This document shows, piece after piece, positions 323 to 44,419 of a stretch of DNA of 64,000 nucleotides. The stretch comes from Aurantiochytrium sp. KH105 (lineage: Eukaryota; Sar; Bigyra; Thraustochytrida; Thraustochytriidae), in the NCBI GenBank assembly GCA_003116975.1, contig BGKB01000223.1:1-64000 (forward strand), given 5' to 3'. The notes under the pieces were generated by a model. That model was not told the origin of the DNA, did not search any database, and saw only the letters and a program-made list of their open reading frames with translations. A program made the position numbers and the translations under genes. Each line of letters starts with the position of its first letter. The first letter of the stretch is position 1.

Positions 323-902
323 CAATCGTTTTATTTTTTTTATTTTTTTGGTTTCCGAGAAGGAAAGAGTGGGTGGGTGGTGCTGCTAACTGGTAAGGGG
401 CAATGCCGTGCCAAGATTTTCCTTTTTGATGGGCTTGGGAGACGAGATGCGAGCATGAGAGACGAATGTAGGAGGATGAACACGTGATAATCTTTCCAAG
501 AACGCATAGTCAATCGATTGATTGCTTCAGTAATCGAATTGGCGGCTACAAAACGTGGAAACGACTGACAGGTTAACTTTATTTTTTATTTTGTTCTTTC
601 TTTTGCATGGTAGTTGTATCGAAGCAACTGACCACATTTCTGTTTCTTCTGCAATCTCGTCTTTTGCGTTCGCATTGTGATACGAATGTCAAAAATAAAC
701 GAACTGGTCTGCCAACACGTGTTTTGTCTTCTCATTACAACGAGGAAACGAATCTATGCAAAGTGATAACAGTAACCACATAATGAGACTCCTGTGAACG
801 AGCAGAACACGGCTTTTCTTGTAACTTTTCGCCAACACGTCACGGGAATTTGCAAGTTGGCGCTCATTAGGTTGCTTGCGCACCAATTTTCCATCTTTCT
901 GG
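323..902. other. Spacer between tRNA copies 1 and 2
   Basis: 580 bases, AT-richer than the surroundings, with no frame that looks coding. Apart from the T-run terminator I see no feature. Confidence 0.6.
329..349 (+). terminator. Pol III T-run terminator of tRNA copy 1
   Basis: T tracts of 4, 8 and 7 bases separated by single A residues begin seven bases after the tRNA. This is the usual RNA polymerase III stop signal. Confidence 0.8.
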
Positions 903-976
903 GTCGTCGTAGCTCAGTTGGTTAGAGCGTTGCCTTCACACGGCAAAGGTCATGGGTTCGACTCCCATCGACGATA
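903..976 (+). tRNA. tRNA-Val (anticodon CAC), copy 2
   Basis: Same 74-nt sequence as copy 1 with the same fold, anticodon loop TTCACAC, A-box and B-box, followed by a nine-T terminator at 985-993. The bases on either side differ from those around copies 1 and 3, so only the tRNA itself is repeated. Confidence 0.97.
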
Positions 977-984
977 GACCTTAA

Positions 985-993
985 TTTTTTTTT
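985..993 (+). terminator. Pol III T-run terminator of tRNA copy 2
   Basis: Nine consecutive T residues eight bases after the tRNA end. Confidence 0.8.
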
Positions 994-1262
994 GGAAATC
1001 ATTGAGATTGTGACCTGCCGCGAATAGGCCTACGGATTTCTTTTTGCCAGTATGTCTTGTCTCGTGCACAATCTCGGACATCATCGATGCTGCTACAAGG
1101 CTCGTACAGATTATTTTCTGAACGTTTTGATTGCAATCTTGAGCTCTCGAAAAAAAAATTTGGTTTTGTCGAAAACACGGCTGCGCGCACGAAGACAGCA
1201 AAACAGTGCAGGCCCTGTCCGCTCCCCGTTAGCGACAAAGGAGCTGCAATAGCAACTCTTCT

Positions 1263-1336
1263 GTCGTCGTAGCTCAGTTGGTTAGAGCGTTGCCTTCACA
1301 CGGCAAAGGTCATGGGTTCGACTCCCATCGACGATA
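1263..1336 (+). tRNA. tRNA-Val (anticodon CAC), copy 3
   Basis: Third identical 74-nt tRNA-Val(CAC). The folding, internal promoter boxes and G1:U72 pair match the other two copies. A nine-T run at 1344-1352 follows. The copies are spaced 654 and 360 bases start to start, all on the same strand. Confidence 0.97.
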
Positions 1337-1343
1337 CGTCGAA

Positions 1344-20105: not shown

Positions 20106-23100
20106 TTAGTTGGGATTACAATTCCTGCAGATTCGCTTACGCGGCTCAAGAGGGAGGCCGCAATCCGGGCAGACGCGAGCTTTGCTGCGCTTCCAACCCT
20201 TCGGTCCTGTTTGACGCGACTTTTTGGACCCACCGCCGCTACTACTGCGGCCACGCTTGCCTCTTCCTGTCGACCTGCTCGATCTGCTGTTGCTGCTAGC
20301 GCCTCCGCCACCACCAAAACTATTACCCATAGCGCCGCCGTTGCCACCTTTTTGAGGACAGTTGTTTGAGAAATGGCCCACTTGCCCACATGAAAAGCAA
20401 GCTAATCCTCCTCCTCCTCCTCCTCCGCCGCCGCCGCCGCTGCCATGCCCAAAATTGTTCTGAGCATGACTGCTTGTCGATCCTCTTTGTGGGCAACTAC
20501 TCGAAAAGTGTCCCACTTGTCCACACGAATAACATGTTGCGCTGGCACCTGGACCTTCGCCACCGCCAAAACTATTCGTTCCGCTATCCATCTGAAGTCC
20601 TCCACGAAAGTTATTTGCGCCGCTAGTGCTCTTTTGAGGGCAACTGCTTGAGAAATGACCTGGCTGACCACACGAGTAACATGTTGCACCGGCAGCCGGG
20701 CCACCACCACCGCCACCAAAGCCACCAAAGCCGCCGCCGCCACCACCACCACCACCACCACCGGAGGGCGCTCCAGCGTCGTCGGACCACTGAAAGAATT
20801 CGCATTCCTCACCACGTTGTCCACACTTGAAAAACTTGCGTCCCTTATTCGGCCCCTCCTTGCGAACCGTCAGCTCCACGGCCGGAAGTTGGTGCCCTGG
20901 ACACACCACATTCTGCTCGTCACCCCCAGTACCAAATCTTGGTGCTTCCACACGGGGCGGCGCCGTTGCGACAGGAATAACACGATTCATCGGTGCAATC
21001 GGACGAGCGTAGGGTTCGCGCTGCTCGGCTCCGCCGCCCTGAAAGCTGGAAACTTGAGGATTGGCTTGTTGCAGAGGAGGTGCAGCCTGAACTCTCCGCG
21101 GTCCCTTGTTAGAGAACGCAGACGGCCCGCCGCTACTCTTGAACGAATCCATAATGCAATCAAGCTCGGTCGAACGGTCGCTGCAACTTGGAGATACACA
21201 CAGGTACAGAGGATTGTCCCAGCCTGGGGGTAGCGCGCTTGATTTAAAGAGAAGTTTTACCTTGCAGCCACCGCATGCTCGGCATTTCGCGCTTCCCTTT
21301 TTTGGAACCGACGCCTCGCGGACGGAGCGAGGAAAGTACAGGCGTTGCTTGCACGTCTTATTTTTACATCGTAGCGAAAAGCTGGCAGGTTCACCAATGG
21401 CGCCCGGAAACTTGACAAGCCGTAGCCCACCAGAATCGCCGCCTCCTCCTCCTCCACATTGAGGACACGGCAAAACGTCCACGTCATCGCCTTCGACGCC
21501 TCCGGAAAGTGCGCAACGCGCTTCGCGGCAATCCCGGCATGTCATGGTCCGTCGGATCAACATGTCTTCGATATCTCCTGACTTTGGGGGACAATGATAA
21601 CATCGTGGACACACGTTGAAACTCCACTCCCCGGGCTTAGCACTCAAGACTTGAGTCTTGCATAGGTAGCATTCGTGCTCAACAGTCGAAATGGCACCAC
21701 GAGGCAATTCGAAGGCCTCTGTACAGGATGAACATATTACTGCGTTCAAAATCGCTGTCGTTTTGCCGCCGCGCGGACCCGGCTTGCCCTCAACCGTGCG
21801 CGTGTAGTGGTCCATGGACTGATTTCCGCATTTTCCGCAACTCGAGATACCGCGCTTTTTAAGTCGATACTCCTTCTTGATTTGCTCGAGCTTGCGCGCA
21901 TTTCCGCGCTGTACTCTTGTCGGAAGAGGATTGCCGCCTCCGCCATGGCCTCCACCGCCACCATTACCTCCGCCACCATTACCTCCTCCTCCTCCTCCTC
22001 CTCCTCCTCCTCCTCCGCCGCCGCCGCCGCCGCCACCACCACCGTCTCCGTTGTCAGGGTCTGCGGGATTGTCCATGTTGGCTGCGAAATTTTCATAGCC
22101 TTGCAGGTACTCTTCGACGGCTTGGTGCAAAAGGTTAACTCGTGCGAGCGTGGCTTGGAAAACGCCACGAAAACGTTCAATCATTGCCTGGATAACAGCC
22201 GGTTTCGTCGCCCGTCCCTGACAAATATCCTTGAGTTGCTGCTCCATCTGAGCCCGGAGCGAAGGACCAGAAATCTCTTGCTCGTGACCAATGCGCTTGT
22301 ATGCTTGGACAAGAGCATAACCAAGTGGACTTGGCCGGAAGCGCTTGACAGCCTGGCCCACTTTTGTCGCATACTCGCGGTCTTGAACTGTCTTGATGTG
22401 GTCTTGGATGGTTGCATCGGTTCCAATGCCATGTCGATCCATCAACCGAATCAGCTCCGGCTCGGAGAGTAGCTCAGGCGGCACTGTTCGGCCGTGATGC
22501 ATTTTTAGCACGCTTGGCACAAAGGTCTGGCCCTCTTCGAAACGAGGCAGGCTACGCTGCGCCCAGCGCTCGTAAACATAGACGTCCAAATAGTTCCGCT
22601 CGAGGACCTCGAGGCCGGATGTCTCGAATGTCTCAGCACCCATGCTGACCACGATTGTGCTCTTGCTGCCCCGCGCGTCCCGACTGCAGCAGGCCAGAAA
22701 GTGCCGCACAACAAACTCGTACACCGCCTTTTCCGGGCCCTGCAGCTGTTCAAGAGGCACGCACGCCGTCGGATGGATGGGAGGGTGTGCCTGATCGTTA
22801 TTGCGACCCTGTCTGGGCATTTGGAACCCCCCCGCATCCAGCAACATCGCCGCGTAGCCCCCCCAGGTCGCATGTGCGCGTTGGACGTCGACAAGGGCCT
22901 GAAGATCAAAACTTGCATCGAAACTATCCGTCTCCGTACGTGGGTAGCTGATGAGACCCCGCTGGTAAAGTGACTCGGCGGCATGCATGGTGGCTTCCGA
23001 GGCAAGGCCCCGCGACCGTGAGAGCCGAATCTGCATTTCCACCGTCGAGAGGGGCACAGGCCGCCACTTGGTCGTCAAGCGCTGGTTCACTCGCTCCACG

Positions 23101-23951
23101 CGCGCTTCCCGTGCCTCGACGCACATTTCAAAGAGAACAAGCGTCGTGAGATGGTCATAAAGCTGGCCACGGCTCCACTGAAAATCACAAGCGGCTTCGG
23201 CGCTTGCTTGGTACGACATGCGAATCGTCCAGAAATCCTCGGCCACAAAAAGTCGGATTTCCTCAGCGCGCTCCACAATAAAGCCCAAGGTAGGGAACTG
23301 GCACGGCCCAAAGCTAATGAGGCGCTGCTGCAGGCCCATGTTTTCCCGCAGGTCAAGCGTTTGAAAGCGTGTAAAAGCCGAGCCAATACGGAGATCAATC
23401 TCGCTTCGTGTCTCGACGGCGTCGACTTCATTCTGATTGAGGTCTCGCAGCGTGCGAAGCGCCTGCCACAGGTTGGCCTCGTTGGCGACCGAGAATTGCG
23501 CGCGCTTCACAATAATGTTGGGCGCTTTTTCACGACAGGCCTCTGCAATCTCTTGACCAATTGCCTCGCCTTCACGGTCACAATCAGTCCAGATAATGAG
23601 CACGCGCGCGGCTCGCGCCTCGCGCTGCAGAGTTTTGGCAATGGCTTCGCTTTGCGAACTCACCTTGCGGATAACTGGCGCTTCGAAGAGTGTGCTTGGA
23701 TTGCACGCATTCCAGCTTCGAAACTGGTCCGCAAAGTCGAGCTCCATGAGATGACCCGAGACGGAGGTGACCACCATGGAAAACTCTTGCTCTTGCGCAA
23801 ACATGGGCGGAATGGCGAACCTGCATCGAAAGTCGAAGCACCGGTTGTACTTGGAGAAGCCGTCGCGCGACCGGAACCCGTTCTGCGAGAGCACCTCTGC
23901 TACGCGTTTGGCAATCGACGGCTTCTCCGCCACGTTCAAGACTACCACCAT
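20106..23951 (-). CDS. TOP3A: DNA topoisomerase III alpha with extended zinc-finger tail
   Basis: A type IA topoisomerase of 1281 residues. It passes single DNA strands and, with RecQ helicase and RMI1, dissolves double Holliday junctions. The Toprim domain opens with VLNVAEKPSIAKRVAEVL and has the metal motif DCDREGE (123-129). The active-site tyrosine is Tyr336 in RGLISYPRTETDSFD. Then come IRLMDRHGIGTDATIQDHI and the end of the core near 610. A Gly run of over 20 residues (about 630-665) separates the core from several C4 zinc fingers (about 690-950), a GRF-type finger (about 1015-1062, ending GEECEFFQW) and three CCHC knuckles of form CxSCGQxGHFSxxCPQ (about 1090, 1140, 1190), split by Gly-rich spacers. 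The tail ends with a C4 motif CPDCGLPLEPRKRICRNC. CCHC-tailed TOP3A is known in plants. All catalytic residues are intact. Confidence 0.95.
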   Translation of the reverse strand: MVVVLNVAEKPSIAKRVAEVLSQNGFRSRDGFSKYNRCFDFRCRFAIPPMFAQEQEFSMVVTSVSGHLMELDFADQFRSWNACNPSTLFEAPVIRKVSSQSEAIAKTLQREARAARVLIIWTDCDREGEAIGQEIAEACREKAPNIIVKRAQFSVANEANLWQALRTLRDLNQNEVDAVETRSEIDLRIGSAFTRFQTLDLRENMGLQQRLISFGPCQFPTLGFIVERAEEIRLFVAEDFWTIRMSYQASAEAACDFQWSRGQLYDHLTTLVLFEMCVEAREARVERVNQRLTTKWRPVPLSTVEMQIRLSRSRGLASEATMHAAESLYQRGLISYPRTETDSFDASFDLQALVDVQRAHATWGGYAAMLLDAGGFQMPRQGRNNDQAHPPIHPTACVPLEQLQGPEKAVYEFVVRHFLACCSRDARGSKSTIVVSMGAETFETSGLEVLERNYLDVYVYERWAQRSLPRFEEGQTFVPSVLKMHHGRTVPPELLSEPELIRLMDRHGIGTDATIQDHIKTVQDREYATKVGQAVKRFRPSPLGYALVQAYKRIGHEQEISGPSLRAQMEQQLKDICQGRATKPAVIQAMIERFRGVFQATLARVNLLHQAVEEYLQGYENFAANMDNPADPDNGDGGGGGGGGGGGGGGGGGGGGGNGGGGNGGGGGHGGGGNPLPTRVQRGNARKLEQIKKEYRLKKRGISSCGKCGNQSMDHYTRTVEGKPGPRGGKTTAILNAVICSSCTEAFELPRGAISTVEHECYLCKTQVLSAKPGEWSFNVCPRCYHCPPKSGDIEDMLIRRTMTCRDCREARCALSGGVEGDDVDVLPCPQCGGGGGGDSGGLRLVKFPGAIGEPASFSLRCKNKTCKQRLYFPRSVREASVPKKGSAKCRACGGCKVKLLFKSSALPPGWDNPLYLCVSPSCSDRSTELDCIMDSFKSSGGPSAFSNKGPRRVQAAPPLQQANPQVSSFQGGGAEQREPYARPIAPMNRVIPVATAPPRVEAPRFGTGGDEQNVVCPGHQLPAVELTVRKEGPNKGRKFFKCGQRGEECEFFQWSDDAGAPSGGGGGGGGGGGFGGFGGGGGGPAAGATCYSCGQPGHFSSSCPQKSTSGANNFRGGLQMDSGTNSFGGGEGPGASATCYSCGQVGHFSSSCPQRGSTSSHAQNNFGHGSGGGGGGGGGGGLACFSCGQVGHFSNNCPQKGGNGGAMGNSFGGGGGASSNSRSSRSTGRGKRGRSSSGGGSKKSRQTGPKGWKRSKARVCPDCGLPLEPRKRICRNCNPN

Positions 23952-24407
23952 GCTGCCTTCCAGGGCAGCGCGCGCCCACCTCGTGCGCCTCCCGAGCCTC
24001 GCGCGCCCGCCACGTTTCTTGGCGGCCTCAGCGTTAGGCTTTTGCGCGCGTTCTCACTCGCGCTCTCGACCCCGTTCAAACCGTGGTTCGTTCCGCCAAT
24101 GGATGGGGTGGAGTAATGGTTGGGCTCTCTCCTTCCACCCGCCCTCGCGGCCCACGCCGGCCAAAGGTCTGCCCTGCGCCGCCCGGACTCGCCCGTCCGT
24201 GCACCGCCCGAGCGCGGCGCCTCCGTCCGCGCCCGGCGGCTGCACCTGGGCGCACCAATTGAACTCTGTTCTCTCAGCTGGAGCAGCAGCGGTGGTTAAC
24301 TAATCCTATAGTGGGGAAGAGGCCCATGACAACACAACGCTCGCGATTCGTGCTAAAGAGGCCAAATGAAGTACTGCTTCCACGGCCATTTTCCCGACGC
24401 AATACAA
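23952..24407. other. Intergenic region upstream of TOP3A
   Basis: 456 GC-rich bases, presumably the TOP3A promoter plus the 3' UTR of the next minus-strand gene. No feature beyond that. Confidence 0.5.
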
Positions 24408-27285: not shown

Positions 27286-30200
27286 TTAGACAAAATCAAG
27301 ATCGTCGTGGCGAAAGTCTGGGTCGTCCTCGTCTTCGTCGTTATCAAAGACGGAACGGGCATCTTTTCGCTTGAAAAGCATGGAGGAGAGGGTCGAGCCT
27401 CGGCGCCGGCGTGGCGTACGCGCAGTGTTGAACGTTGTGTGCGAATCGCTTGGAGCAGAGGACTTGGCACCAAAGAATGACTTACTTTGGTGCAATGTCG
27501 TGTCTGTCCCCGTAGTCTCGTAGCCATCGTCAACCTCGTCTTCATCTTCATCTTCATCATAATACTCGGTGCCCTCCTCGTCGGTGTTCACAGTATTCGT
27601 CATGAACTTGCTCAGGATACCCGAGAAACCAGTTGCAGCTGACAACGTCGATCCTCTTCGGCGCGAGGACAATTTGCTTTGTGGGCGAGGCTGTTCGCGT
27701 TGTTGGCGACGTCGCTGTTGCTGCTGTCTCTGCTGCTGCCCTTGTTTTTGCTGCATGCCAAAGACCTCGGCGGCCTTATTGTCCAAATCACTTGCCACAG
27801 AAAAGTTCAGCGAGGTTGCTGAGGGATCTTGATGTCTCGCCCAATCCCCGCGCCGCCCCTGAACGCCTCCGCCCAGGCTTCGTTGACTATTCTGTCTGAA
27901 TGAAGGCTCGCGGCCGCTGATGGGTTCCATCTCAAGCGACCTCGTCGAGATTCGACTATCCCATGAAAAATGTGACCCGCGGTTCCGAGAAATGAGCGGA
28001 ATCTTCTCGCGCGTGTGGCGAGGAAAGAGCGCAAAGGCGACAAAGAATAGCACCAAGGGTTCAACGATGACAACGCCCACACCAAAGGCAATGACAGCGT
28101 GAAGAGCCCAAGATCTTGGGGTGGAAATATCCTTGGTTCCAATCGCCACCAAGTACGTGCATGCAGCAAATAGCCCAAGCATCAACAGCGCACAGAGAAG
28201 TCTTGGTAAATTGCATCGCCTCGGACGCACATGATATGCCCTCTCGAGCCTGGCAAGGCCTCGCTCATGGCGTGCTAGTGCTACAGAGATATGCACTTTA
28301 CCGCCATAGATGCGACGGAGGCCATCATTGAATAAACGGAAAAACCACACGCTTGATGCAATGTTCTTGGCCAGACGGTAGTACTTGGAACGCATAACGT
28401 GGTCGTGCATTGCCTTCATGAAGATGAGCTGGCCACGCTTTATGAAAACCTGCATTTGACGCTTGCGCAGCTGCTCGAGCTCCGGATTGGCCGTGCGAGA
28501 AATGTTTCGTTCCAAGTCCACAAGCTCTGTGTCTTCAATCCTGTGCTGATTCGGGTTTCTCCAAGCCTTGTCGGCGGACCGGTTCTTGCGCCGGTTCTTG
28601 CGCTTGCGTACTTGCCCACTATTGTGCCAAGGCGAATCAACGATCGCAATAGCTTGCGCCTTGAGGTGCGCCACACGGCCCAGGACGCGTCGCTCGCTCT
28701 GCGCCAGCTTGTAAAGCGCATATCGATACACAAGAATGACAGTTGCAACCACAAGTGCGCCCACGATAAAGCCCACCAACGTGAGCGACTGTTCTTCGAA
28801 TTGATCACCGAGCTTATTCACCATGTAGACGCTGGCAAAGGCGGCCAGCATGGCCAACGGGACCACCACACTCCGCGCAATGCGACTTCGCTGCGGGTCA
28901 AAAACCAAAAGACCCGCTACAGAGTGTGCATTTGCCACATCGCCAAGGAGGTCAGAGAACGACTTGGTAGGATTCATCGGTGGCTGTGCGTGCGCACGAA
29001 GCTTTTGAAATGCATCGCGCTTCATGAACTCAAGGCTCCGAACGTTCTTACCAAAGTGCCGCTGCGCCAAAAACGCCAGCACTGCGCCACGCTGCACGCG
29101 ATTAGCGTCACGGACATCCTGCGTATGCAACCACATGGAAAGGAACAGCCACGCGCCGATGGTTGCACCCAAGATGATCCCCAGCAAAGCCGGGTCAAAA
29201 GGCAAACCGGAGTCGACGACTTCGGACAACTGAATTCCCGCAAATTGGCTCCGCGAGGTGATCGGGCCGCACTCACAGGTAATGATATCCGACGTGCGAT
29301 TGATGACGGCACAGGCATCAGAGTCCCAAACCTCTCCGGTCGAGTCCCACATGCTACACGAGATTGCGCTTGTCGATGAGGCATCAGCATAAAGAATGTC
29401 CAAACTGAGATTGACGCGTCTCGACGAAGAGGCAAAAATCACAGACGAGTGCTGAAGCTCGAGAGACAAAACGTCTGTCACAACATTCTGTTGATATGCG
29501 GTGGTCTGTTGCGCGCGCTCCGTTGACGCAAGGTTCCGGCCTAACTCAGAAGCCTTGATATCAATGTTGGCGAGCTTGGTCACAATAGCGTTGACAGTGT
29601 CCCCATTGACGCAAATCTCTTCTGGAGGAGAGCGCAACACCGAGACAATGACCTCATCGTAAACGGCAGAGGGCCCAGGATCAAAGAGCTCGGAAGGAAT
29701 CTCTACAAACGTGTAATTCCCTGCATCCGTAGTGGAACTCGCTGGTTGGTAGCGACCCGATACGCCATTGGAGAACTCCTTGTACGATAACGAGTCCATT
29801 CCAGAGAAGCTAACTGCGAAGCTGCCTTGACCTGAAAGCCGCGGGGCAAGGACTGTCTCGATAATGTCGCTGTGCAAATCAGTGAGGGAAAAGTTGTATC
29901 GGCAGATCCCGGAGAGTGAGGCGAGCTCGGCGAGAACCTCCGATGCGATGCCCATGGCCCCCTCGGGAACGGAAAAGGCAAGGTTGGGCTCCACATTCGC
30001 TGCCGAGGCAACCTCCACAACTCGGGTGATCTCATTCCGCCAGAGACTCAGTGTAGTCTGGAACATCTCCGCGACGCGCTCGGCAAGGGCAATGTCATCG
30101 TCATCGAGACTGAGAGCGATCTCGAGTAGCACGAGCATGATAAGTTCGCCGAGCTGCGAAGAAAAGGTGCGTTCGTGCAGCAAGGTCAGGGCCCCCTCGA

Positions 30201-32973
30201 GCTGCGTGGTAATCTGAGACTTCAAGGTGTCCACGCCCTCATCCGAAAGGCTTTCGAGAGCACGTGTAAGCACGGATGAATACGCGAGCTGGTCTCGTAA
30301 ACTTTCATCTGGATCCTCATCATCAACCTTGCTGGCAACGGTCACCTCATCGATCGATGAAGGCACGCTGAGTCGGATAAACACCGGGTCTGATGCTGGG
30401 GACTCTGCACCGTAGCCGTCACGCACAAAGGCCACCACGGACGTGTACGATACGGTCTCGGTTTTTTGAGTAAAGGGCAGCACAACGTTCGACAACGTTG
30501 GGGAAGAGCTCCACTCCGAAATGGAAACGGGCTCCGCCCCCAGCGTGTTGCGCTCCAGCGCGAACTTGTACTCGAAGAGGTCTGTGTTTTCCGCATCATC
30601 GGCAGGAACGGCTGTCAGCGTGAAGCGCGTGACACCAGCTGTTCCTTGGGAGCTCGAAACCACGACAGAAGGGGCCGCGGGGAAGCCGTACACTCGGAAA
30701 CCAATTTCATTGGTATAACTCGACGCATTCGCCTGCTTCGCGACGAGTTCATATCGAAAGCTTACTTTTCCTGTGCTCACGGCAGGAACGGCGTACGGCT
30801 TGATGGCGAGGTTTGGAGAGAGAGGGGATGTCGCATAGACCTCGTTGACCTTTTCAATCTCTGCAGCAGACAGTTCGCAGCTGGACCGTTCCACCAATTC
30901 TCCAATTTCGGCCTCAACGTCATCCGTAAACTGCCCTTCACGGCGGGTCCAGCAGTACTCGACAGGGGTGTCAGCGCGTGCCTGAACCACGCGCGTCGAG
31001 AGAACAATGCCTGCATGGGAGTACGTGACGTCTGCAACATTGTTGATGGTCACTTTGATGGAGGTTTCAACCGGAGCAGCAGTAGGACTCGGCGTTGGTG
31101 TTGTGCCTGACGAAGTTGGTATCTCGAGGGCGACCTCAGAGCCACAGATATCCGCCCATGGGCGCGTCAGAGAAGGCACCCGGCTATCCGAAAGGTTCGG
31201 GTTCTCAATAATGAATGCCTGCGCCTTGGCTCCTTCGTCCGAGTGCTCCATATTGTGACAATGAAGAGCAACGCGGCCAAGAAAGGTGTCTGGCTGAAAG
31301 CGAAAAGAGACGGCTGCGCCCGTACGTGGGCGAACGGTGTCGAGCCAATCGCCTCGCTTGTGGAAACCGGTCTCGTCTTCGATATCATGCAAAAGCTGGT
31401 AGTGATTGACGTGAATGTGAAGCGGGTGATTGTGGCTACTCTCGGTGAGCTCCCACTCTTGGACCTCGCCAAGTCTCATGACGGAGACATTGCGCTGCTC
31501 GGGCAACGCCTCGTCGGCCGTAATCCAATCCTTGGCAAACTCAACGTTATTGACGGAAAAGGGATTCACAAGAATGACCCACTGCAGAAAGTCAGGGGAC
31601 TTCCAGCGCTCCTCAAAGTCAGGTCTCGCAATCGTCGCCGAGGCTTCCTGGACTTCGGCGAGCGTGAAGCCCGAGTAAGGACTTGGCTCTCGGTCCAAAA
31701 GGTCGGCGAGATAAAAGGGAAGGCAAGCTTGCCATGAAAACGCAGTGTCCGGAAGCGCAGACGTTTGCGTCGCACTGACGACCGAAATTGTAAAGAGAAA
31801 CTCCCGTTGATACACGGGATCCTGCCGCGAGTCGTCAACGAGACCTTCCTCGTCGAACGCGTCAAAGTTGTCATACACCAAGGCTTGCGAACCTGGCTCA
31901 CCGGAACAGCGAACAAGGACGTCGGCGCGATTGGCCGGATGAAGGTGAATCGAATGATTCGCAGCAAAGTTCAGGTCACGAGGGCCATCTCTAAGGTACA
32001 CGCCATCGCGCGCAATCACTTGAACCTCGCAATTCGACGGAGTGGCAGCGGAGGCGTTGTAGATGGCCATTTTCAAGTCGCGCACCGCAGCAACGTGCGC
32101 AATGCGCCATCGATACCAGATGCCCTGTTCCACTTCAAGACGCGGTTTGTAAAGACCGTTGATGAGGAAGATACCATCCGACTTGAAATTTGCAAAGGCA
32201 TCTGTAGCAGAGTCAAAGCCGAGTCCGCTTACGTTGACTGCAAAGGTTGTGTCTTTGACCCCAATTCGATGCGAGAACGGATCATCCTCGACGCCGTCGG
32301 AAAGATCGAGAAGTCGGGGCGGATCAACGTGCTGCACAAAAATCACCTGCTCCGGTGTGTCCAAGAGCTCTGTGGGGATTTCGGTCCCATCGTCCGCATC
32401 GTCAATAATGAGCATCCCTGCTGCGCCGGCGCCAGTAAAAGCGACTGCCAAAGGATGCATGTGCGGATGGTACCAGTGCGAGCCACCGGCGTGGTCCGTG
32501 GGGAGCGTGTACACGTAGTCATGGCCCTCTCCCGGCGGAATCTTGAGTGCGACGTCATCTTCATCTCCAGACACGTGGAGGCCATGCGTGTGGATATTCG
32601 AAGTATGATTTCCGGGCGATGGAGGATCGAGATCGTTTGTGTAACGAACAGTGACCTTGGCGCCCTTGGCCATGCGGATGATGGGGCCAGGCACTGTTCT
32701 GGCGGCGCCATTGGCGCCATAGCCCTTTCCGTGCATCGTAAAGGACCCCTCGTGCGAGATGGTACGCGTCGTGCCGTCCGTGCTTTCTACGAGAAAGGGT
32801 AATTCCAAGACGGATGTGCCAAAGGAGAGGTCCATGGAGTCTCCATCGCCCAGAACGACCTCGCTCAGCGGGCAGTCGCTCAATAGAATTCCCTCCTCGT
32901 TCGAGTTGCAGTTCGCGGTTGTCTGCGCGCGTACAGCCTGCACCAAAAAGGCCACGAGGACTACGCTGAGCAT
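27286..32973 (-). CDS. Multicopper oxidase fused to a REJ-GPS-polycystin-1-like membrane receptor
   Basis: I start at the ATG at 32973, which gives an immediate signal peptide (MLSVVLVAFLVQAVRA) and 1895 residues; the open frame further upstream covers a GCA microsatellite. Residues about 30-620 are a three-cupredoxin multicopper oxidase with all four copper motifs: HTHGLH (128-133), HWYHPHMH (166-173), HPLHIH (516-521) and HCHNMEH (571-577). These enzymes oxidise metals or organics and reduce O2 to water. Residues about 620-1200 are beta-rich and REJ-like (pattern ...LFEYKFALE...VVAFVRDGYGA). A GPS motif follows (1206-1245: CSMWD, VWDSDAC, CECGPIT), then a first membrane segment (about 1258-1281), two more (about 1361-1420) and two more (about 1586-1654, starting LPRLLCALLML). 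The last resemble polycystin-1 TM2-5. PLAT and the channel-type TMs are not seen. The cytosolic tail is Gln-rich, then acidic. No frame break anywhere. Confidence 0.88.
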   Translation of the reverse strand: MLSVVLVAFLVQAVRAQTTANCNSNEEGILLSDCPLSEVVLGDGDSMDLSFGTSVLELPFLVESTDGTTRTISHEGSFTMHGKGYGANGAARTVPGPIIRMAKGAKVTVRYTNDLDPPSPGNHTSNIHTHGLHVSGDEDDVALKIPPGEGHDYVYTLPTDHAGGSHWYHPHMHPLAVAFTGAGAAGMLIIDDADDGTEIPTELLDTPEQVIFVQHVDPPRLLDLSDGVEDDPFSHRIGVKDTTFAVNVSGLGFDSATDAFANFKSDGIFLINGLYKPRLEVEQGIWYRWRIAHVAAVRDLKMAIYNASAATPSNCEVQVIARDGVYLRDGPRDLNFAANHSIHLHPANRADVLVRCSGEPGSQALVYDNFDAFDEEGLVDDSRQDPVYQREFLFTISVVSATQTSALPDTAFSWQACLPFYLADLLDREPSPYSGFTLAEVQEASATIARPDFEERWKSPDFLQWVILVNPFSVNNVEFAKDWITADEALPEQRNVSVMRLGEVQEWELTESSHNHPLHIHVNHYQLLHDIEDETGFHKRGDWLDTVRPRTGAAVSFRFQPDTFLGRVALHCHNMEHSDEGAKAQAFIIENPNLSDSRVPSLTRPWADICGSEVALEIPTSSGTTPTPSPTAAPVETSIKVTINNVADVTYSHAGIVLSTRVVQARADTPVEYCWTRREGQFTDDVEAEIGELVERSSCELSAAEIEKVNEVYATSPLSPNLAIKPYAVPAVSTGKVSFRYELVAKQANASSYTNEIGFRVYGFPAAPSVVVSSSQGTAGVTRFTLTAVPADDAENTDLFEYKFALERNTLGAEPVSISEWSSSPTLSNVVLPFTQKTETVSYTSVVAFVRDGYGAESPASDPVFIRLSVPSSIDEVTVASKVDDEDPDESLRDQLAYSSVLTRALESLSDEGVDTLKSQITTQLEGALTLLHERTFSSQLGELIMLVLLEIALSLDDDDIALAERVAEMFQTTLSLWRNEITRVVEVASAANVEPNLAFSVPEGAMGIASEVLAELASLSGICRYNFSLTDLHSDIIETVLAPRLSGQGSFAVSFSGMDSLSYKEFSNGVSGRYQPASSTTDAGNYTFVEIPSELFDPGPSAVYDEVIVSVLRSPPEEICVNGDTVNAIVTKLANIDIKASELGRNLASTERAQQTTAYQQNVVTDVLSLELQHSSVIFASSSRRVNLSLDILYADASSTSAISCSMWDSTGEVWDSDACAVINRTSDIITCECGPITSRSQFAGIQLSEVVDSGLPFDPALLGIILGATIGAWLFLSMWLHTQDVRDANRVQRGAVLAFLAQRHFGKNVRSLEFMKRDAFQKLRAHAQPPMNPTKSFSDLLGDVANAHSVAGLLVFDPQRSRIARSVVVPLAMLAAFASVYMVNKLGDQFEEQSLTLVGFIVGALVVATVILVYRYALYKLAQSERRVLGRVAHLKAQAIAIVDSPWHNSGQVRKRKNRRKNRSADKAWRNPNQHRIEDTELVDLERNISRTANPELEQLRKRQMQVFIKRGQLIFMKAMHDHVMRSKYYRLAKNIASSVWFFRLFNDGLRRIYGGKVHISVALARHERGLARLERAYHVRPRRCNLPRLLCALLMLGLFAACTYLVAIGTKDISTPRSWALHAVIAFGVGVVIVEPLVLFFVAFALFPRHTREKIPLISRNRGSHFSWDSRISTRSLEMEPISGREPSFRQNSQRSLGGGVQGRRGDWARHQDPSATSLNFSVASDLDNKAAEVFGMQQKQGQQQRQQQQRRRQQREQPRPQSKLSSRRRGSTLSAATGFSGILSKFMTNTVNTDEEGTEYYDEDEDEDEVDDGYETTGTDTTLHQSKSFFGAKSSAPSDSHTTFNTARTPRRRRGSTLSSMLFKRKDARSVFDNDEDEDDPDFRHDDLDFV

Positions 32974-34325: not shown

Positions 34326-35753
34326 ATGATATGCGTGGCCGACGGGAGCCAGACGAGCACGATGCAACAAAAGGATACGGCAGCGGTCGGGCACGTGGCG
34401 GGCGCACCGAGCGACGATGGTGACGCGGCGGTCCACAAGGCGTACCGGATCAGGTGGCTAGTGATGCTTATTTTTTGCATGGCAAGCGCGTCGAACGCGG
34501 TCTTATGGATCACCTTTGCGCCCATTAATTCTCTCGTGCAAGAGTTCTATGCTTGCAGCGCAGCCGCTGTGAACGCGCTTAGTCTCGTGTACCTCATTGC
34601 GTATGTCCCGTTTTCCATTGTGGCCAACCTGATTTTCAAGAAGCAGGGCATGTATCGGGCCATCGTCCTCGCCGTGTTTCTTGACTTTCTGAGCAGCCTT
34701 TTGCGATTCCTGAGCGCAGCATCCAACGCAGAGCCGCGCGGGGGAAGCGATACCGGCTATGCCCTTCTCTTAAGCGGACAGACGCTGGGAGCGATGGCAC
34801 AGCCGCTCTTGACCAATGCTCCGGCACTCATGGCGTCAAGATGGTTTCCTACAAAGGAACGTGACGTAGCCGCGGTCGTCATGTCTCTTGCAAACCCAGT
34901 AGGAATCGCAATCGGCTCGGTGCTACCGACCTTTTATGTCATCGGAGATGACGCTGGTGTGCGCATGTACGACCTCCTTCTCGTTGAGATGGGAGTGATG
35001 GCCGCTATCTTCATTCTCGCGTTGATTTTCTTTGCGGAGAAGCCCGAACTTCACCCGTCGCACAGCGAGACGCTCAAGGCAACGCAGCAGGAGCTCCCAC
35101 TCAGGAGCGAGCTGGGCCTGATGCTGTCAAATCGAGATTACCGCATTCTCTTTGTCTGCTTTGGGGTTGGTCTCGGATTCTTCAACGCGCTCACCACCCT
35201 CGTCGAGCAATTTGTAAACAAGAGTGGCTATACGTCGGATGACGCGGGTTTGTTTAGCGGTCTACTCATTGGAACTGGCATCATCTCCGCCATCATTATC
35301 GGATTGGTGCTCGACCGTGTGCACAAGTACAACTTTGTGCTCAAGCTTCTCTTTGTTATTGGCGGCACGTTTGTGATCATCTTTGTGCTTGTCTTGCGTC
35401 CGAACAATATGCCTGTTCTCGCGTTCACCTTTGCTGGCATGGGGTCCGCCATGTTGCCTCTCCTTCCAGTCGTCTTTCAGTGCGCAGCCGAGTGTACCTA
35501 TCCTCTACGCGAAGACCTTACCACGGGTGGGATCATGAGCGCCGGTCAAGTCACTGGCGTAGTCTTTATAGTTGTCCTCGGGGAGATGGTGGATGCGCAG
35601 CCCGTATACGATGGCTATGTGTTCGAGCCCGCGTACATTTTGATTGTTGTTTGTATTGTCAGCTGTGTTTTGGGTATTCTTCTGTACAATGGCTCATACC
35701 ACCGACTCAAGGCAGATCAAGATCCACTCAGCCCGGCAAGCACAATCGCTTGA
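34326..35753 (+). CDS. FLVCR/SLC49-like major facilitator transporter
   Basis: The frame is open from 34188, but that codon is GTG; the first ATG (34326, MICVADG) gives 475 residues. Twelve membrane segments can be traced. The start of the first, RWLVMLIFCMASASNAVLWITFAPINSL, closely follows animal FLVCR ([28 protein letters not shown]), as do the SLVYLIAYVPFSIVANLIF segment and ANPVGIAIGSVLP in TM5. The SLC49 family includes FLVCR1/2, reported as haem exporters and more recently as choline/ethanolamine carriers, and DIRC2. The substrate cannot be told from this sequence. The gene is head to head with the multicopper oxidase fusion, and 76-bp tandem repeats follow its stop. Confidence 0.85.
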   Translation: MICVADGSQTSTMQQKDTAAVGHVAGAPSDDGDAAVHKAYRIRWLVMLIFCMASASNAVLWITFAPINSLVQEFYACSAAAVNALSLVYLIAYVPFSIVANLIFKKQGMYRAIVLAVFLDFLSSLLRFLSAASNAEPRGGSDTGYALLLSGQTLGAMAQPLLTNAPALMASRWFPTKERDVAAVVMSLANPVGIAIGSVLPTFYVIGDDAGVRMYDLLLVEMGVMAAIFILALIFFAEKPELHPSHSETLKATQQELPLRSELGLMLSNRDYRILFVCFGVGLGFFNALTTLVEQFVNKSGYTSDDAGLFSGLLIGTGIISAIIIGLVLDRVHKYNFVLKLLFVIGGTFVIIFVLVLRPNNMPVLAFTFAGMGSAMLPLLPVVFQCAAECTYPLREDLTTGGIMSAGQVTGVVFIVVLGEMVDAQPVYDGYVFEPAYILIVVCIVSCVLGILLYNGSYHRLKADQDPLSPASTIA

Positions 35754-37496: not shown

Positions 37497-38449
37497 TCGC
37501 AGTTGCTGTCCGTCTGCCCCGCGAAGGCGGGTCGGATGGCGGCGCTGCTGCGCGCGACGCTGCCGGCCCTCGCGTTTCAGTCTTGCTTCTCGTTCTGCTC
37601 GAAAAGCCAGAGAGAGAGAGTGCGGGAGAACGTGCTTGACACATGTTTGCCAGACCTCGACTCGGATGGGCTCCAAGTTCTCAAGCTGCTCTTTTCCTTG
37701 CGCGGGGCCATCTTCTCAAGCGAGCGAGCGAGCGGGCTGGCGAGCGAACTCACATCTTGGAGCTCGCGTTGGGAGCTAAGAAGGTGAGCATGGTGGTCAA
37801 GATTATCCATCCTCGAGTCTCATCAAGGTCGATGTAAGGGTAGGCTAGCTAGCAGCAATAGCAGCAATCATCCCCCCTCTTGGTTCATGAGCACCGCTGA
37901 GCACCGCCGGCTGCAAGTCACACTGACTGCTTCGAACCCATGGTCCGGCAGACAACCCATCTTCTTCGCCCGCTGCCTTCCGGAGGCATTTCGCTGCACG
38001 CGTATCCTCATCGAGGCCTCGCCCTCGCGCACGACGTTGCTCCTCCCTCGCAGCAATCATCCTCTCCTCCGCATCCGCTGCGGCCCCATCTTGAGCCCTC
38101 CGTTGGCCAAAAAGCGACGCGGAAAAGCATAAACATCCCCTCCGCAGCCCCTCCACGAGCCCGCGCGGATCGCCCGCCGCCGGCCCGCGCTGCCTCGCGT
38201 CGCGTGGCCTCGCGAGCCTCGCGTCGCCGGTGACGGTTCTGCGGTCTCTGCTCAGCTCCTCGACGGCGCGAGTAGTAGCATAACATCGCACAACAATCTA
38301 GACCCCGTTGGCGAGCCGGCGACCCGACCTCGTCCAGGCCCGGCGCTGCGCCGGGACCTTCGCGCTCTCGCGCTGCGCCGGCGGCGATCGCATCGCGTCG
38401 CGTCTCGCCCCGCGCGCGCGCGGGCCTGCTCGCGCTCGCGGCCGCGGCC
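37497..38449. promoter_or_regulatory. Divergent promoter of the LNG-repeat and Furry genes
   Basis: 953 bases between two outward starts. A GA run (37609-37621) and GAGC repeats (37720-37735) lie on the left side; the right half is very GC-rich up to the Furry ATG. No extra gene supported. Confidence 0.35.
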
Positions 38450-41400
38450 ATGGAGCGCGAGGCGGCGCCGCACGAGGTCGACGTCGGCAACGGCGGCGAC
38501 AGCGTGGAAAAACACGGCGACTCGCGCGCCGCGCGGCTGCAGCAGGAGCAGCAGCAGCAGGAGGAGATGGCCCGCGCCGGGGATGGCGACGGAGAGCTCG
38601 AAGACATTGCGCTCGACAATGATGACGACGACGAGGAGGAGCACGTGGACGATGTAGAGGACCACGAAGAGACGGCGCCTGCCGCCGCGAATGAGCAAAG
38701 CGAACGGGAAGACGGCCACGTCGACGACAGAAAAGGAGACAAGCAAGGCAACAAGGAGGCAAGCCAAAGTCAAAGTCCACACGTGGCAGTACCGCCAGTC
38801 CCGGCAAGTGCTAACGAAGGCGACGAGCAGAAACGCCCGCCTTCGCCAACTGCGAGCTCCGTCTCCTCGACAGCGACAACGGGCACCACATCACGCGCAG
38901 CCGTCTGCAGCGACCCATCCCTCAATGACGCCTTACTTCAGCTTCAACTCTTGCTGACAGCTCACGTGGCAAGAATGTACGGCATTCTGTGGCCATCAGA
39001 TAGTGGATCTCGCAAACTCGTCGAGGCAGGCTTCTCACCCAAAAGGGTGGTGGCCCTCCGCAAGGTTTCCCAGCAAGATATCGAGCGCGGCCTCGAGCAG
39101 GTCCTTCAATATCTTGCCATTCTTTTGAGAGACCGCACAGGCACGGTCGTGCCCATGTGCGTGGTCTTGCTTCGCGTTCGCGAGCAAGCCATCTCCATGG
39201 ATCCGCAGAAAGCCAAAAAGACGCGTCTACTGCCCTCAATTCAGCAGCGCGAACCCAAAGAGGCAATCTCCGAGACAAGTCTTGCCATGGAAGGGATTCT
39301 TTTCAGCACCTTGAATGAGCTTCTAGCAGGCGTTTCGGCAGCTACAGTAGTGGAGCCGCTCGACGCCCGCGGCGAAGCCGTCGTGAACAAATTCGTCGAC
39401 ATTGCCTACGAGCATTTTGCCAAGCATCTCAAATCTGCCGAAGCTGGATCCCTGGAGCCGTGTGTGGCGCTCATTGGACGTCTCTCTTGGTTCTGTCTTC
39501 CACGCACATTGGAGAACTTTGCCACGAGAATGGGAAAGGTATACTTTAATGCCAGCGCACTCGAGTACGTGCCCTTTATGCAAATTCTGTCACGACGCGT
39601 CAAGTACTCTCTTCTCCGGACTCCCCAATGCAGACCCGCATGTCTCTCGTTCACGCAAGCATTGGCTAAGCTGCTAAAAACCACCTCGTGCGGCGAGCTC
39701 ATTGACGAGACCTTTCGTTGCGTTGTCTTTATGCTCTCCCGACTGCGCCGTGAGCACACGCAGCAACAACAATCGCTGCAACACTCACAGCGATATTTCA
39801 AACGAAGCACTTCGTCGGCCAGTTCGGTGGTTTCGGCGAGCTCGGTGAGCTCGGAGACCTCGGCCTCATCGCCATTAGCATCGTTCGAGGCCGCCATGGG
39901 CACCGCGCTCGAGGCCATCTTTGGCTATGCCCATGGGTACGCCTCGCATGGCAAGCACCTTCCGTCGGCGCTCGAGGCGATGGAGACTCTTGTAGGCTGG
40001 CAAGCCTTGCAAAGCCCCTTGCCTGCTCTTGTGGGTTCGCAGCACGAGCGTCTCTGCAAGGAGTTGCTCCGCCGCGTGTGCAATACAACGACACGAATCT
40101 CTGGCCTTGATCACATGCAGCGCTACCTCAAGAGTTTACCGCCGACGAGCTCTTTGCCTGGCCCAGAACCCCTCGATGAGATCCCCAAGGCTCTCTTTGT
40201 CGATGAAGCCGTACCCCGGGCGCAGGAAGCAGCGCTCGTGAGTGCAGTCATGGTCGAGCTGGGACGATGTTTTCCACGCCTCTTTGACGCAGCAATGGCG
40301 CGCGGACTCACAAGCACCAAAACGACCACGGCGCAACGCGCCATTTGCCTCAATGCGCTGTCCAAAATTGCGCAGTCTGTCCCTCAAGGCGAACGTTCGC
40401 CGCTTCGAGGCTACGCAAAATTTGTCATCAATCTCTCTGGCCGTGACTCGCCAGTCGGTACGGTTGCCGAGGCGCTGGCATGCTTTCCCATGCTTGGAGA
40501 GCAAAGCCAACAGCTGCTACAGAACTGTGTGAACTGCGCATTTGGCTTTGATCTGACACTTGTCGACGCAGGCCGCGATGCGTTGATCCGGTTTTGCCAG
40601 CTGGGTCCCATCTATGCCGAGAAAGCCATCATGGTCACGGTAGAGTCCCCATCCATCAAGTTAGTGTGCACCATGCAGCATACCAAGGCACCGCTCGACA
40701 CGGCTCAGATTTCAAGCAGCGTCACGACTCTTGAACGCATTCTTTGCGCGGCCTTGGACAAAGGTTTCGAGTCTTCCGATCTTGTTGCCGAGGCTGGGGC
40801 CTCGTTGCTTCTCGCGAGCACGTATCCCGATGAAAAAGTCCAGGCCAAGGCGCGGGATGCTCTTGAGCGTATTGGGACAATCACTGACAAACATGGCGAG
40901 AGTCAGTACCTGCAGCGTGCGCTTGACAAGCTCTTGCTCGGGCTCTTGGGCGCGAGCGGTTCGGCGGACTCTTGTGGCGGAGCTCGGGTTCAAGCTCTGA
41001 ACAAGCGACTGGCGCGAAAAGCGGGCTATTGCGATTTTGTCGCGTGGTGGCGCAACCAGTGCACCCTGATTTGCGAGGCAAATCTGCCGCATAGCAACAA
41101 GCCGCCCTTTGTGCGCTCTCTTGTGCACGAGTACCTGACGGCCTCAAGCAATCGGTTGCAAAATGCGGCGCTCATTTCGCTCAGTCATTTGAAGGATTGC
41201 CATGAGGTTCTTGAGAAGCAAATGGCCATGCAGTCGTTGCAGGCGCGCAATGAGATCTTTAATGGGCTTTTTGTAAAGCTTATGGCGGCCTTGCGCGATT
41301 CGTATCGCGGTGGCGCGTTGGAACGTCGCGTGCATCAAATGGTTCGCACGTGGATCCAGTCTTCTGGAGATGAGGTGGCTCGTTTGCACATGGCCAAGTG

Positions 41401-44400
41401 GACTCCGCACGTGGTCGAGGCGGCAGCGCGACTGTTGCGCAAGTTTGTTCTTTTTGGCCAACTGAACGCGTTTCCTGATCCCGATGTGGCGCGAGACCAG
41501 GCCATTTTCCTCATTCGAGAGTGGCATCGTACACGTGACCGTGCGCCGCGTCTCGCCGCGGTTTCGGACGCTTTTGTTACCTTGCTGGACTCGGGCCATC
41601 TCAAGACGGTTGACGCGCAGTCGTTTGCACTCGAAATGCTCTCGGGCAGCGCCGGGTCGAAGCGGTATCAGCAGTTTGGCCTGCGCGCACTTTTACGTCA
41701 AAACCTCGATGCCATGCTCAAGCATTATTACGAGGCGGTCTTGCGCTCTTTTGATCCAGATCGTTGGGCCAAGGAGCCCGCAGGGATCATCCCAATTGGG
41801 AGCCCCGCATCTGCTCGTGCAAATGATCCTGCTGCCAGGGGTCTCGCGAACAAGAGCACTGAACGAAGCCCCTTTATGGTCCACATTGCTTCGGCTGTAC
41901 TTTACGCCCTCGATGCCTCGGTGACGAGCGATCACACGCTTGCGGAAGGTCTGCGACCGCAAATGGCCCTTTTGGTGTCGCTGCTCTTTGTGCACCCACT
42001 TCGAGAGATGCGCGAGCTGGTCGCAGGATGGGTACCGCACGGCACATTTCTGGGTCTGCCTCACCGTGACTTTTCTCCTGCGCTTGTGTCCAACAAGCTA
42101 TCCGGCCTCGAACGCTCTGTTCTTGTCTCTAGATTCCTCGCCACGCACTGGGAAGCGTCGTCGATTGACGAAATGGTCCAGGGCGCTGCCAAGGTGTCGC
42201 CGTACTTGAGCGACGAGCACATTAGCTGTCTTTTGCAGGTGCTTGAACCGTGGCTCGTTCACTGCTACCCTCGCGCTACGCGACAGCCTGGACGTTTGAT
42301 CACCCGACTTTTGCGACTATGTGCGCGACTTCGATCCGGCGACAATGATCCCGCATGGGGCATTTGGCGCAGCGTGAGTCTCGAGGAGGGCCTCGAAGAA
42401 ACGGTGCGCACGATGGTGAATTTCGTGGTGGCCATGGAGCAAGACAACGCGCAGCAGCGTTCCGCGATGGACGCCATGAGTTCTCTTTTTTCGAAATCGT
42501 CTCAACTTGGCGATGCGCCTGTTGACACGCTTCGTGCGCTCGTTGCCGCCTTTCCGGAGCCCTCGTGGAAAGTGCCAGACAAGGACTCTTTTATTCGCGA
42601 GGCTGAAGAGGCAAGTGCCGCGGACGCAGAGGCGATTCCAGGTTTAACTGCGACAGAGCGAGCGCGAGCCGAGGAGGATACTCGAACTTCGCGTGCAGTC
42701 TTGCGCCTCGTAAATCATGCCCCATTTTTGACGCGCAATTTCTCTGGTGCGGACCTCGCACGTGTGCTCTACTTTACGTTTGTGGAGGAAGGCGTGGACA
42801 GCGCGCTGAGTCAGCGCACGCTTCGCGCAGTGAATGAAGAGTTTGCGGCAGGCATGCCGGCGCTCTTGCTGCACTTTGAAGCTGATGGCGCTCGCGAAGA
42901 CCATGACGACGGCGTCGCGCAGCAGGTTGGCGGTGCTGCTGGTATGGCGAGTGCAAACGGACATGGCAACCTTGCGCGTAGTAGCAGCAAGAACTTGGGT
43001 GATCTTGATATTGGCGAGGTGACCAGCGTCGGGAGCGGAGGAGACTGGCTCTCTGTCATCGCAGAACATAGCACGGAAACCGTACGTAAACTTGCGGAAA
43101 CGGCGCTTCATTGTGTCATTTACTGCCTCGAGCCTGGGAAGCGAACTCGCGCGATCATGCTGCTGCAAAATATCCCGACGACAGCCTTGGAGGACAGCTT
43201 TGTGCGCGAGCTTGCGAAGCGGATTGAGTCACGCTGCATGTATCTTTTGAAGCTGCTTGAGCTGGGAAATGGAAACGCGGCGACCGCGCCGCGTCTGGAA
43301 GCTCTCGAGCACCTTTTCATTCTCGGCGAGTGGCTAGCTTCGGCACCGTCTCTGGAGAGGCGTTTGCGCGAGGATCTCGCGATCCTTGGCACGTGCGCAT
43401 TGTCGATTCCGGTAGTCATGCGTCCGAACCCATTCTCGCGCATTCGCGTCTCGGCGCTCAAGCTGTTGCAGTCGATTGGACCCTCCGATGATGGGGAGGC
43501 TGCAGACCCGGTTTTGCAGGATCATTTGGTAGGCTGTCTGGTGCACCAAGAGGTAGCCCCTCGGGCGGCAGAGATTATTCTCTCGCAGGGGGCAGCGCAC
43601 GGCCTACCGGAGCCTGCGAACTTCGTCTTGCTTGCAGCAGCGATTTGCCTTGTGCAAGCGTCGGCGTCTGGGTCACGCGTCCAGGCCGAGACGCAACGCG
43701 GTCTTGCGCGTTATCTCGTCAACCAAGTGGAGGCCGTAGCGGACACCCGTCCCCAGGTGAGCGGGCTATTGGACCAGCTGAGCGCACGGCTTTTGGCCCT
43801 ATCGGAGCCGAGCAAGTCAATGTTGATGGCCTCGGCCTCGGCCTCGGCCTCGCCGTCGTCTGCAGTGCGGCGCTCGAGCGACGCGAGCGAGGATCGCGAA
43901 TCCGTGGTGGCGCTATCGTCATCGGTGTCGACGCCAGCCGACTTTGTGCAGAATTTTGTTGCAACTCTTCTTCGCGGATCTGGGACGGCTGCTGTTGTTA
44001 TTGATGGTAGTGGTGATGCTGACGAAACTGGGAACGGTGGCACCAATGTCAGCACAGAGAGCTTTCAGTCGGTGCTGCAATTTTTGGTGCAGACGATAGA
44101 AGTCGGCAGCGAACCGTGGGCCTTTGGCGCGCTGGAGCTCTTGCGCGAGTGCATCAAGCATCGCGAAGTGGTGAGCTTGCTACTGGAGCCAGAAAATAGA
44201 TTGCTGGAGACCGTCATGGACGGTCTGGTAGTAGCTTTGGAATCTTGGCCACGGGCGCGGCGCGCGGACATCTTTAATGTAATGGCGACGCTGCGGCTTA
44301 AGCCCGCGAGCTCGTTTGACTTTATTCACGCTGAGACAACTGCGCTAGCGGCGAAGCAGCGATGTCTCGTGAGCGGGCTTGCACACTGCAGAGCACAGCT

Positions 44401-44419
44401 CGACGCGAATTTGCACTAA
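38450..44419 (+). CDS. FRY: Furry/MOR2/Tao3-family cell morphogenesis scaffold
   Basis: 1989 residues, ATG in strong context (GCGGCCATGG). An acidic, Gln-rich disordered head (1-165) precedes about 1800 residues of helical HEAT/ARM-type repeats. Blocks matching Furry in order by eye: ETSLAMEGILFSTLNELL with VVNKFVDIAYEHFAKHL (animal FRY: RRDLAVDFIFCLVLVEVL... VHEVLNLAFKHFKH), SLEPCVALIGRLSW, YCDFVAWWRNQCTLIC (FRY: YIGLWRNYLILCCS), and DEHISCLLQVLEPWLVHCYP (FRY: GRQVMLHYLLPWMNNIEL). Furry proteins are scaffolds for NDR/LATS-type kinases with MOB, controlling polarity and cortical growth. Length is nearer to plant MOR2 (about 2150) than to animal FRY (about 3000). A Ser-rich stretch with tandem ASASAS lies near 1800. 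No intron is needed. Confidence 0.78.
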   Translation: MEREAAPHEVDVGNGGDSVEKHGDSRAARLQQEQQQQEEMARAGDGDGELEDIALDNDDDDEEEHVDDVEDHEETAPAAANEQSEREDGHVDDRKGDKQGNKEASQSQSPHVAVPPVPASANEGDEQKRPPSPTASSVSSTATTGTTSRAAVCSDPSLNDALLQLQLLLTAHVARMYGILWPSDSGSRKLVEAGFSPKRVVALRKVSQQDIERGLEQVLQYLAILLRDRTGTVVPMCVVLLRVREQAISMDPQKAKKTRLLPSIQQREPKEAISETSLAMEGILFSTLNELLAGVSAATVVEPLDARGEAVVNKFVDIAYEHFAKHLKSAEAGSLEPCVALIGRLSWFCLPRTLENFATRMGKVYFNASALEYVPFMQILSRRVKYSLLRTPQCRPACLSFTQALAKLLKTTSCGELIDETFRCVVFMLSRLRREHTQQQQSLQHSQRYFKRSTSSASSVVSASSVSSETSASSPLASFEAAMGTALEAIFGYAHGYASHGKHLPSALEAMETLVGWQALQSPLPALVGSQHERLCKELLRRVCNTTTRISGLDHMQRYLKSLPPTSSLPGPEPLDEIPKALFVDEAVPRAQEAALVSAVMVELGRCFPRLFDAAMARGLTSTKTTTAQRAICLNALSKIAQSVPQGERSPLRGYAKFVINLSGRDSPVGTVAEALACFPMLGEQSQQLLQNCVNCAFGFDLTLVDAGRDALIRFCQLGPIYAEKAIMVTVESPSIKLVCTMQHTKAPLDTAQISSSVTTLERILCAALDKGFESSDLVAEAGASLLLASTYPDEKVQAKARDALERIGTITDKHGESQYLQRALDKLLLGLLGASGSADSCGGARVQALNKRLARKAGYCDFVAWWRNQCTLICEANLPHSNKPPFVRSLVHEYLTASSNRLQNAALISLSHLKDCHEVLEKQMAMQSLQARNEIFNGLFVKLMAALRDSYRGGALERRVHQMVRTWIQSSGDEVARLHMAKWTPHVVEAAARLLRKFVLFGQLNAFPDPDVARDQAIFLIREWHRTRDRAPRLAAVSDAFVTLLDSGHLKTVDAQSFALEMLSGSAGSKRYQQFGLRALLRQNLDAMLKHYYEAVLRSFDPDRWAKEPAGIIPIGSPASARANDPAARGLANKSTERSPFMVHIASAVLYALDASVTSDHTLAEGLRPQMALLVSLLFVHPLREMRELVAGWVPHGTFLGLPHRDFSPALVSNKLSGLERSVLVSRFLATHWEASSIDEMVQGAAKVSPYLSDEHISCLLQVLEPWLVHCYPRATRQPGRLITRLLRLCARLRSGDNDPAWGIWRSVSLEEGLEETVRTMVNFVVAMEQDNAQQRSAMDAMSSLFSKSSQLGDAPVDTLRALVAAFPEPSWKVPDKDSFIREAEEASAADAEAIPGLTATERARAEEDTRTSRAVLRLVNHAPFLTRNFSGADLARVLYFTFVEEGVDSALSQRTLRAVNEEFAAGMPALLLHFEADGAREDHDDGVAQQVGGAAGMASANGHGNLARSSSKNLGDLDIGEVTSVGSGGDWLSVIAEHSTETVRKLAETALHCVIYCLEPGKRTRAIMLLQNIPTTALEDSFVRELAKRIESRCMYLLKLLELGNGNAATAPRLEALEHLFILGEWLASAPSLERRLREDLAILGTCALSIPVVMRPNPFSRIRVSALKLLQSIGPSDDGEAADPVLQDHLVGCLVHQEVAPRAAEIILSQGAAHGLPEPANFVLLAAAICLVQASASGSRVQAETQRGLARYLVNQVEAVADTRPQVSGLLDQLSARLLALSEPSKSMLMASASASASPSSAVRRSSDASEDRESVVALSSSVSTPADFVQNFVATLLRGSGTAAVVIDGSGDADETGNGGTNVSTESFQSVLQFLVQTIEVGSEPWAFGALELLRECIKHREVVSLLLEPENRLLETVMDGLVVALESWPRARRADIFNVMATLRLKPASSFDFIHAETTALAAKQRCLVSGLAHCRAQLDANLH

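Follow-up and report, generated by a model that had tools for sequence, protein, structure and literature searches.

A multicopper oxidase in one reading frame with a GPS-type stalk and five hydrophobic helices in Aurantiochytrium sp. KH105

Can a multicopper oxidase and a receptor-type membrane protein be encoded as a single polypeptide, and what would such a protein do? The question is raised by a long open reading frame in a 64,000-nucleotide stretch of DNA from the thraustochytrid Aurantiochytrium sp. KH105 (positions 1 to 64,000 of contig BGKB01000223.1, assembly GCA_003116975.1), here called the window. The original prediction for this frame comprised a signal peptide, a three-cupredoxin oxidase with every copper-ligand motif, a REJ-like region, a GPS motif, five membrane segments resembling TM1-5 of polycystin-1, and a long cytosolic tail. 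The frame has the following extent:

27286..32973, minus strand: whole open reading frame, a multicopper oxidase-GPS-five-helix fusion of 1895 amino acids (ATG at 32973, TAA at 27288-27286)

The predicted uninterrupted minus-strand frame is present, running from 32973 to 27286 through 1895 codons with zero stops, and the probability of 1895 codons without a stop at the GC content of the window is about 1e-31. Stops occur nearly throughout the other two forward frames. Measured against a codon-usage reference taken from five other long open reading frames of the window, codon bias favours the frame in nearly every 120-codon step across residues 1-1895, including the junction between oxidase and receptor. 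There are zero N characters in the window, and its genes are plainly nuclear eukaryotic. Overall, the oxidase-receptor fusion looks real and unusual.

Several other genes occupy the same window. A gene for an FLVCR1/2-like (SLC49) MFS transporter (34326-35753, plus strand; E 1.7e-43 to FLVCR2) is divergent from the oxidase gene and head-to-head with it, and a GC-rich spacer of about 1.35 kb separates it from the start of the oxidase. Within 1.1 kb (249-1337, plus strand) lie three tRNA-Val(CAC) genes that score equally against Rfam. At 20106-24053 on the minus strand is a gene for a type IA topoisomerase whose C-terminal part contains a GRF zinc finger and several CCHC zinc knuckles, and an open frame of 2046 codons with no Pfam match lies at 38279-44419 on the plus strand. 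A stop-free minus-strand frame of 3686 amino acids spans 52940-64000 and runs off the window edge; a ubiquitin-conjugating (E2) domain is found close to its end, and a UBR-type zinc finger is weakly matched.

The N-terminal part of the fusion consists of the following features:

32923..32973, minus strand: signal-peptide-like segment, residues 1-17 (hydropathy)
32395..32703, minus strand: cupredoxin domain 1 (Cu-oxidase_3), residues 91-193, with HTHG at 128-131 and HPH at 169-171 (Pfam E 1.1e-14, motifs)
31891..32166, minus strand: cupredoxin domain 2 (Cu-oxidase), residues 270-361, weak (Pfam E 0.22; weak alignment to Thermus laccase)
31219..31542, minus strand: cupredoxin domain 3 (Cu-oxidase_2), residues 478-585, with HPLHIH at 516-521 and HCHNMEH at 571-577 (Pfam E 5.4e-12, alignment)

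By hydropathy, the N-terminus is signal-peptide-like, as predicted, with MLSVVLVAFLVQAVRA preceding QT. Domains 1 and 3 of the three-cupredoxin oxidase are recognized by Pfam over the curated cut-offs, at 54.9 bits for Cu-oxidase_3 (cut-off 21) and 46.1 bits for Cu-oxidase_2 (cut-off 20.4), but the middle domain scores under its cut-off and is assigned weakly. The four copper-ligand motifs are in place and supply all ten His and the one Cys of the T1, T2 and T3 sites; the claim that every ligand motif is kept stops short at the axial position of the T1 copper (Cys+10), which is Ala582 here and Met in the four bacterial oxidases aligned. An axial Ala at the T1 site is unusual. Laccases with Leu or Phe provide the analogy for a T1 copper without an axial Met, and by this analogy Ala582 suggests a three-coordinate, high-potential T1 copper. 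From the sequence, we infer that the oxidase is catalytically active. The closest solved structures are the Thermus laccase 2xu9 (E 3e-22) and CueO, which share with the present oxidase the three-domain order and all the copper-binding His and Cys residues and differ from it in the axial Ala and in its joining to a multi-pass membrane module. The NCBIfam CueO model matches with E 3.4e-23, far under its equivalog cut-off, and therefore the oxidase is not CueO itself. Multicopper oxidases held at the membrane are also represented by the anchored ferroxidases, yeast Fet3p and hephaestin; unlike the present protein, these have a single membrane helix and no GPS stalk.

The oxidase is followed by a linker and a long stalk that leads to the GPS motif:

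31054..31140, minus strand: Thr/Pro-rich linker at the junction, residues 612-640 (sequence; frame bias continuous)
30334..31053, minus strand: putative FN3/REJ-like region, beta-rich-looking, residues 641-880 (no family match)
29362..30321, minus strand: GAIN-like region, helical then beta, residues 885-1204 (low-confidence model, pLDDT 40.5; no significant Foldseek match)
29254..29361, minus strand: GPS motif, residues 1205-1240, with CECGPIT replacing CxCxHLT (Pfam PF01825, ADGRF1 match, pattern)

Residues 641-880 contain beta-sandwich-like repeats by eye and have no Pfam family match. The predicted REJ-like region was not confirmed: PF02010 gave no match up to E 10 with the whole protein or with pieces of it. 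Two bacterial genomes searched for REJ-family proteins on which to build a profile yielded nothing, and the controls of that search were negative as well. The segment from the oxidase to the GPS motif has only four Cys residues (674, 699, 1024, and 1121). A single-sequence AlphaFold model of the GAIN region, residues 885-1250, reached a pLDDT of 40.5, which is too poor to judge the fold. With this poor model, GAIN-bearing chains (CELSR1, a CD97 complex, latrophilin-1, BAI3, and GPR110) occupy five of the top seven Foldseek rows, none with E < 0.001, and VIA-align gave GAIN chains non-significant Z values of 6.0-6.8, under those of designed helical proteins.

The GPS motif itself is marginal by score and right by position. 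PF01825 scored 19.5-22.0 bits (E down to 2.4e-4), just under the gathering score of 22.5, and the best match in the PDB is ADGRF1 (E 1e-3). The Trp positions and four Cys residues of a GPS are present, and the motif is located shortly before TM1, which agrees with the predicted GPS. The GPS pattern occurs once in six frames and in 0 of 20000 shuffles, a rarity check only, since the pattern was composed with the present sequence in view. Alignment to ADGRF1 places Pro-Ile-Thr at the cleavage triad in place of His-Leu-Thr. GPS cleavage occurs between HL and T/S (PMC9672506), and self-cleavage is therefore unlikely here; to judge from its triad, the protein most likely remains uncut.

The remainder of the protein is a membrane module with a tail:

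29125..29196, minus strand: TM1, residues 1260-1283 (hydropathy)
28810..28875, minus strand: TM2, residues 1367-1388 (hydropathy)
28714..28788, minus strand: TM3, residues 1396-1420 (hydropathy)
28207..28713, minus strand: basic cytosolic loop between TM3 and TM4, residues 1421-1589, with 39 K+R versus 14 D+E (charge count)
28138..28206, minus strand: TM4, residues 1590-1612 (hydropathy)
28021..28101, minus strand: TM5, residues 1625-1651 (hydropathy)
27289..28020, minus strand: cytosolic tail, low-complexity and polar, residues 1652-1895 (sequence)
27640..27663, minus strand: RRRGSTLS motif 1, a basophilic-kinase-like site, residues 1771-1778
27385..27408, minus strand: RRRGSTLS motif 2, residues 1856-1863

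The charge distribution gives a positive-inside topology with the N-terminus out and the C-terminus in, and the loop between TM2 and TM3 is short and acidic. The long cytosolic tail of the prediction corresponds to residues 1652-1895. The helices also gave weak hits in Pfam, to FecCD, DUF456, and other families, all of them under the cut-offs and attributed to chance hydrophobic similarity.

How far does this module resemble polycystin-1? TM1-5 of polycystin-1 (PKD1) follow a 1+2+2 spacing, and the third helix is followed by a long cytosolic loop. The present protein shares with the polycystin-1/REJ family this spacing and loop, together with a large ectodomain and a GPS just before TM1, and differs in that no REJ domain, PKD repeats, PLAT domain, or TM6-11 channel was detected and in its Pro-Ile-Thr triad. 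The five predicted membrane segments are thus present as hydrophobic helices, and their likeness to polycystin-1 TM1-5 is one of helix count and spacing only. The in-frame fusion of the oxidase to a receptor-like GPS multi-pass protein is supported, and for this protein "polycystin-1-like" is a description of layout only. Profile searches recovered Cu-oxidase and, marginally, GPS, but neither REJ nor PKD_channel. A phmmer search of solved structures matched no polycystin chains in the PDB; Pfam found no PLAT/LH2 domain in the loop of 83 residues that joins TM1 to TM2; and for a TM6-11 cation channel there was neither a PKD_channel match in Pfam nor any further helix. Structure prediction over the helices (single-sequence AlphaFold, residues 1180-1665) gave a pLDDT of 44.5, too poor for fold comparison; Foldseek returned no meaningful match for this poor model, and the matches listed by VIA-align for the low-pLDDT models, which carry no weight, began with designed helical proteins and included no polycystin. 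PKD1-family proteins of the sea urchin were assigned by REJ, GPS, and PLAT, and some members of the family also have fewer helices (PMC1934368). Only the GPS was found here among these three domains, so the protein is not filed as a PKD1-family member. It may work in a PKD1-type mode; its non-canonical triad means that it probably would not work like cleaved polycystin-1.

GPS multi-pass proteins outside animals are already known from the stramenopile Ectocarpus, in which Esi0130_0068 is a REJ-GPS protein with 6-7 TM segments and a REJ E-value of 4e-30 (PMC4700764). Both stramenopile proteins have a large ectodomain (976 residues in Ectocarpus), a GPS, and a handful of helices, but the Ectocarpus protein has a clear REJ domain and no oxidase reported. 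Adhesion GPCRs, of which ADGRF1/GPR110 is the nearest for the GPS, likewise place a GPS/GAIN-like stalk ahead of the first helix; they have seven helices and the cleavage His, whereas the present protein has five hydrophobic helices, no 7tm match in Pfam, and no cleavage His. The GAIN-7TM module has been reported as a holozoan combination (PMC12716839). Among prokaryotic genome contigs, the only relatives found are four bacterial oxidases with 25-31% identity that match the oxidase part alone, and neither the full-length protein nor its receptor half matched any viral contig; a relative with the same domain order was not found in either collection. The open-licence papers searched yielded no pairing of multicopper oxidase with polycystin, REJ, egg jelly, labyrinthulomycetes, or thraustochytrid, and a fusion of a multicopper oxidase to a PKD1-type receptor is not known to have been described.

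We favour, with a probability of roughly 0.55, the reading that this is one protein, a catalytically equipped multicopper oxidase on an uncleaved GAIN/GPS-type stalk, with a five-helix module of PKD1-like layout and a cytosolic tail, that acts as a permanent tether. The oxidase would face the cell exterior or the lumen of an endomembrane compartment, where it would oxidise a reductant, for example Fe(II), Cu(I), or a phenol, in four one-electron steps and couple this to the reduction of O2 to water. The uncleaved stalk would make the tether permanent, and the membrane module would mainly anchor and position the enzyme. The tail, with its two likely phosphorylation motifs, may serve trafficking or regulation.

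The same layout of GPS, stalk, helices, and tail is that of PKD1 and adhesion GPCR signalling proteins, and the length of the tail and its RRRGSTLS site, present twice, also fit a true receptor. In such a receptor the oxidase would be the sensor, for copper, oxygen, or some oxidisable ligand, and its state would be relayed by the GAIN/GPS stalk to the five helices and on to the phosphorylatable tail. This is possible but less likely than the tether: no known signalling domain, 7TM, or channel was detected and the cleavage triad is lost, yet cleavage-deficient adhesion GPCRs can retain function (PMC13197933). A related possibility, about as likely, is a redox receptor in which the copper, oxygen, or substrate-turnover state of the oxidase is read directly through the stalk and the five-helix module. 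Ala582 and the diverged domain 2 (Pfam E 0.22) would suit an inactive or structural cupredoxin ectodomain that gives a GPS protein a module for binding or adhesion; this is less likely than a receptor, because the ten His and the Cys are all kept, ligands that would be superfluous in a simple scaffold.

The least likely explanation, which we consider quite improbable, is an error of gene model or assembly: two genes or transcripts in one frame, with either an alternative end downstream of the oxidase or an in-frame intron that went unrecognised, or else a chimeric assembly. In its favour, the protein is known here from genomic sequence alone, and same-order relatives were missing from the prokaryotic and viral collections. 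Against it, there is no stop and no N, codon bias is continuous, and in-frame Met is absent from the stretch between residues 575 and 946 (576-945), so that a separate downstream gene would have no obvious start before the stalk region. A plain two-gene reading was dropped for its lack of a second start codon.

GPS proteins are described as carrying ectodomains that serve mostly in adhesion or binding. An oxidase as a GPS ectodomain, if true, would be an enzyme on a receptor-type stalk and would mean that GPS stalks are able to carry enzymes. It would also provide a means of asking whether the state of an enzyme can drive a GAIN-type receptor.
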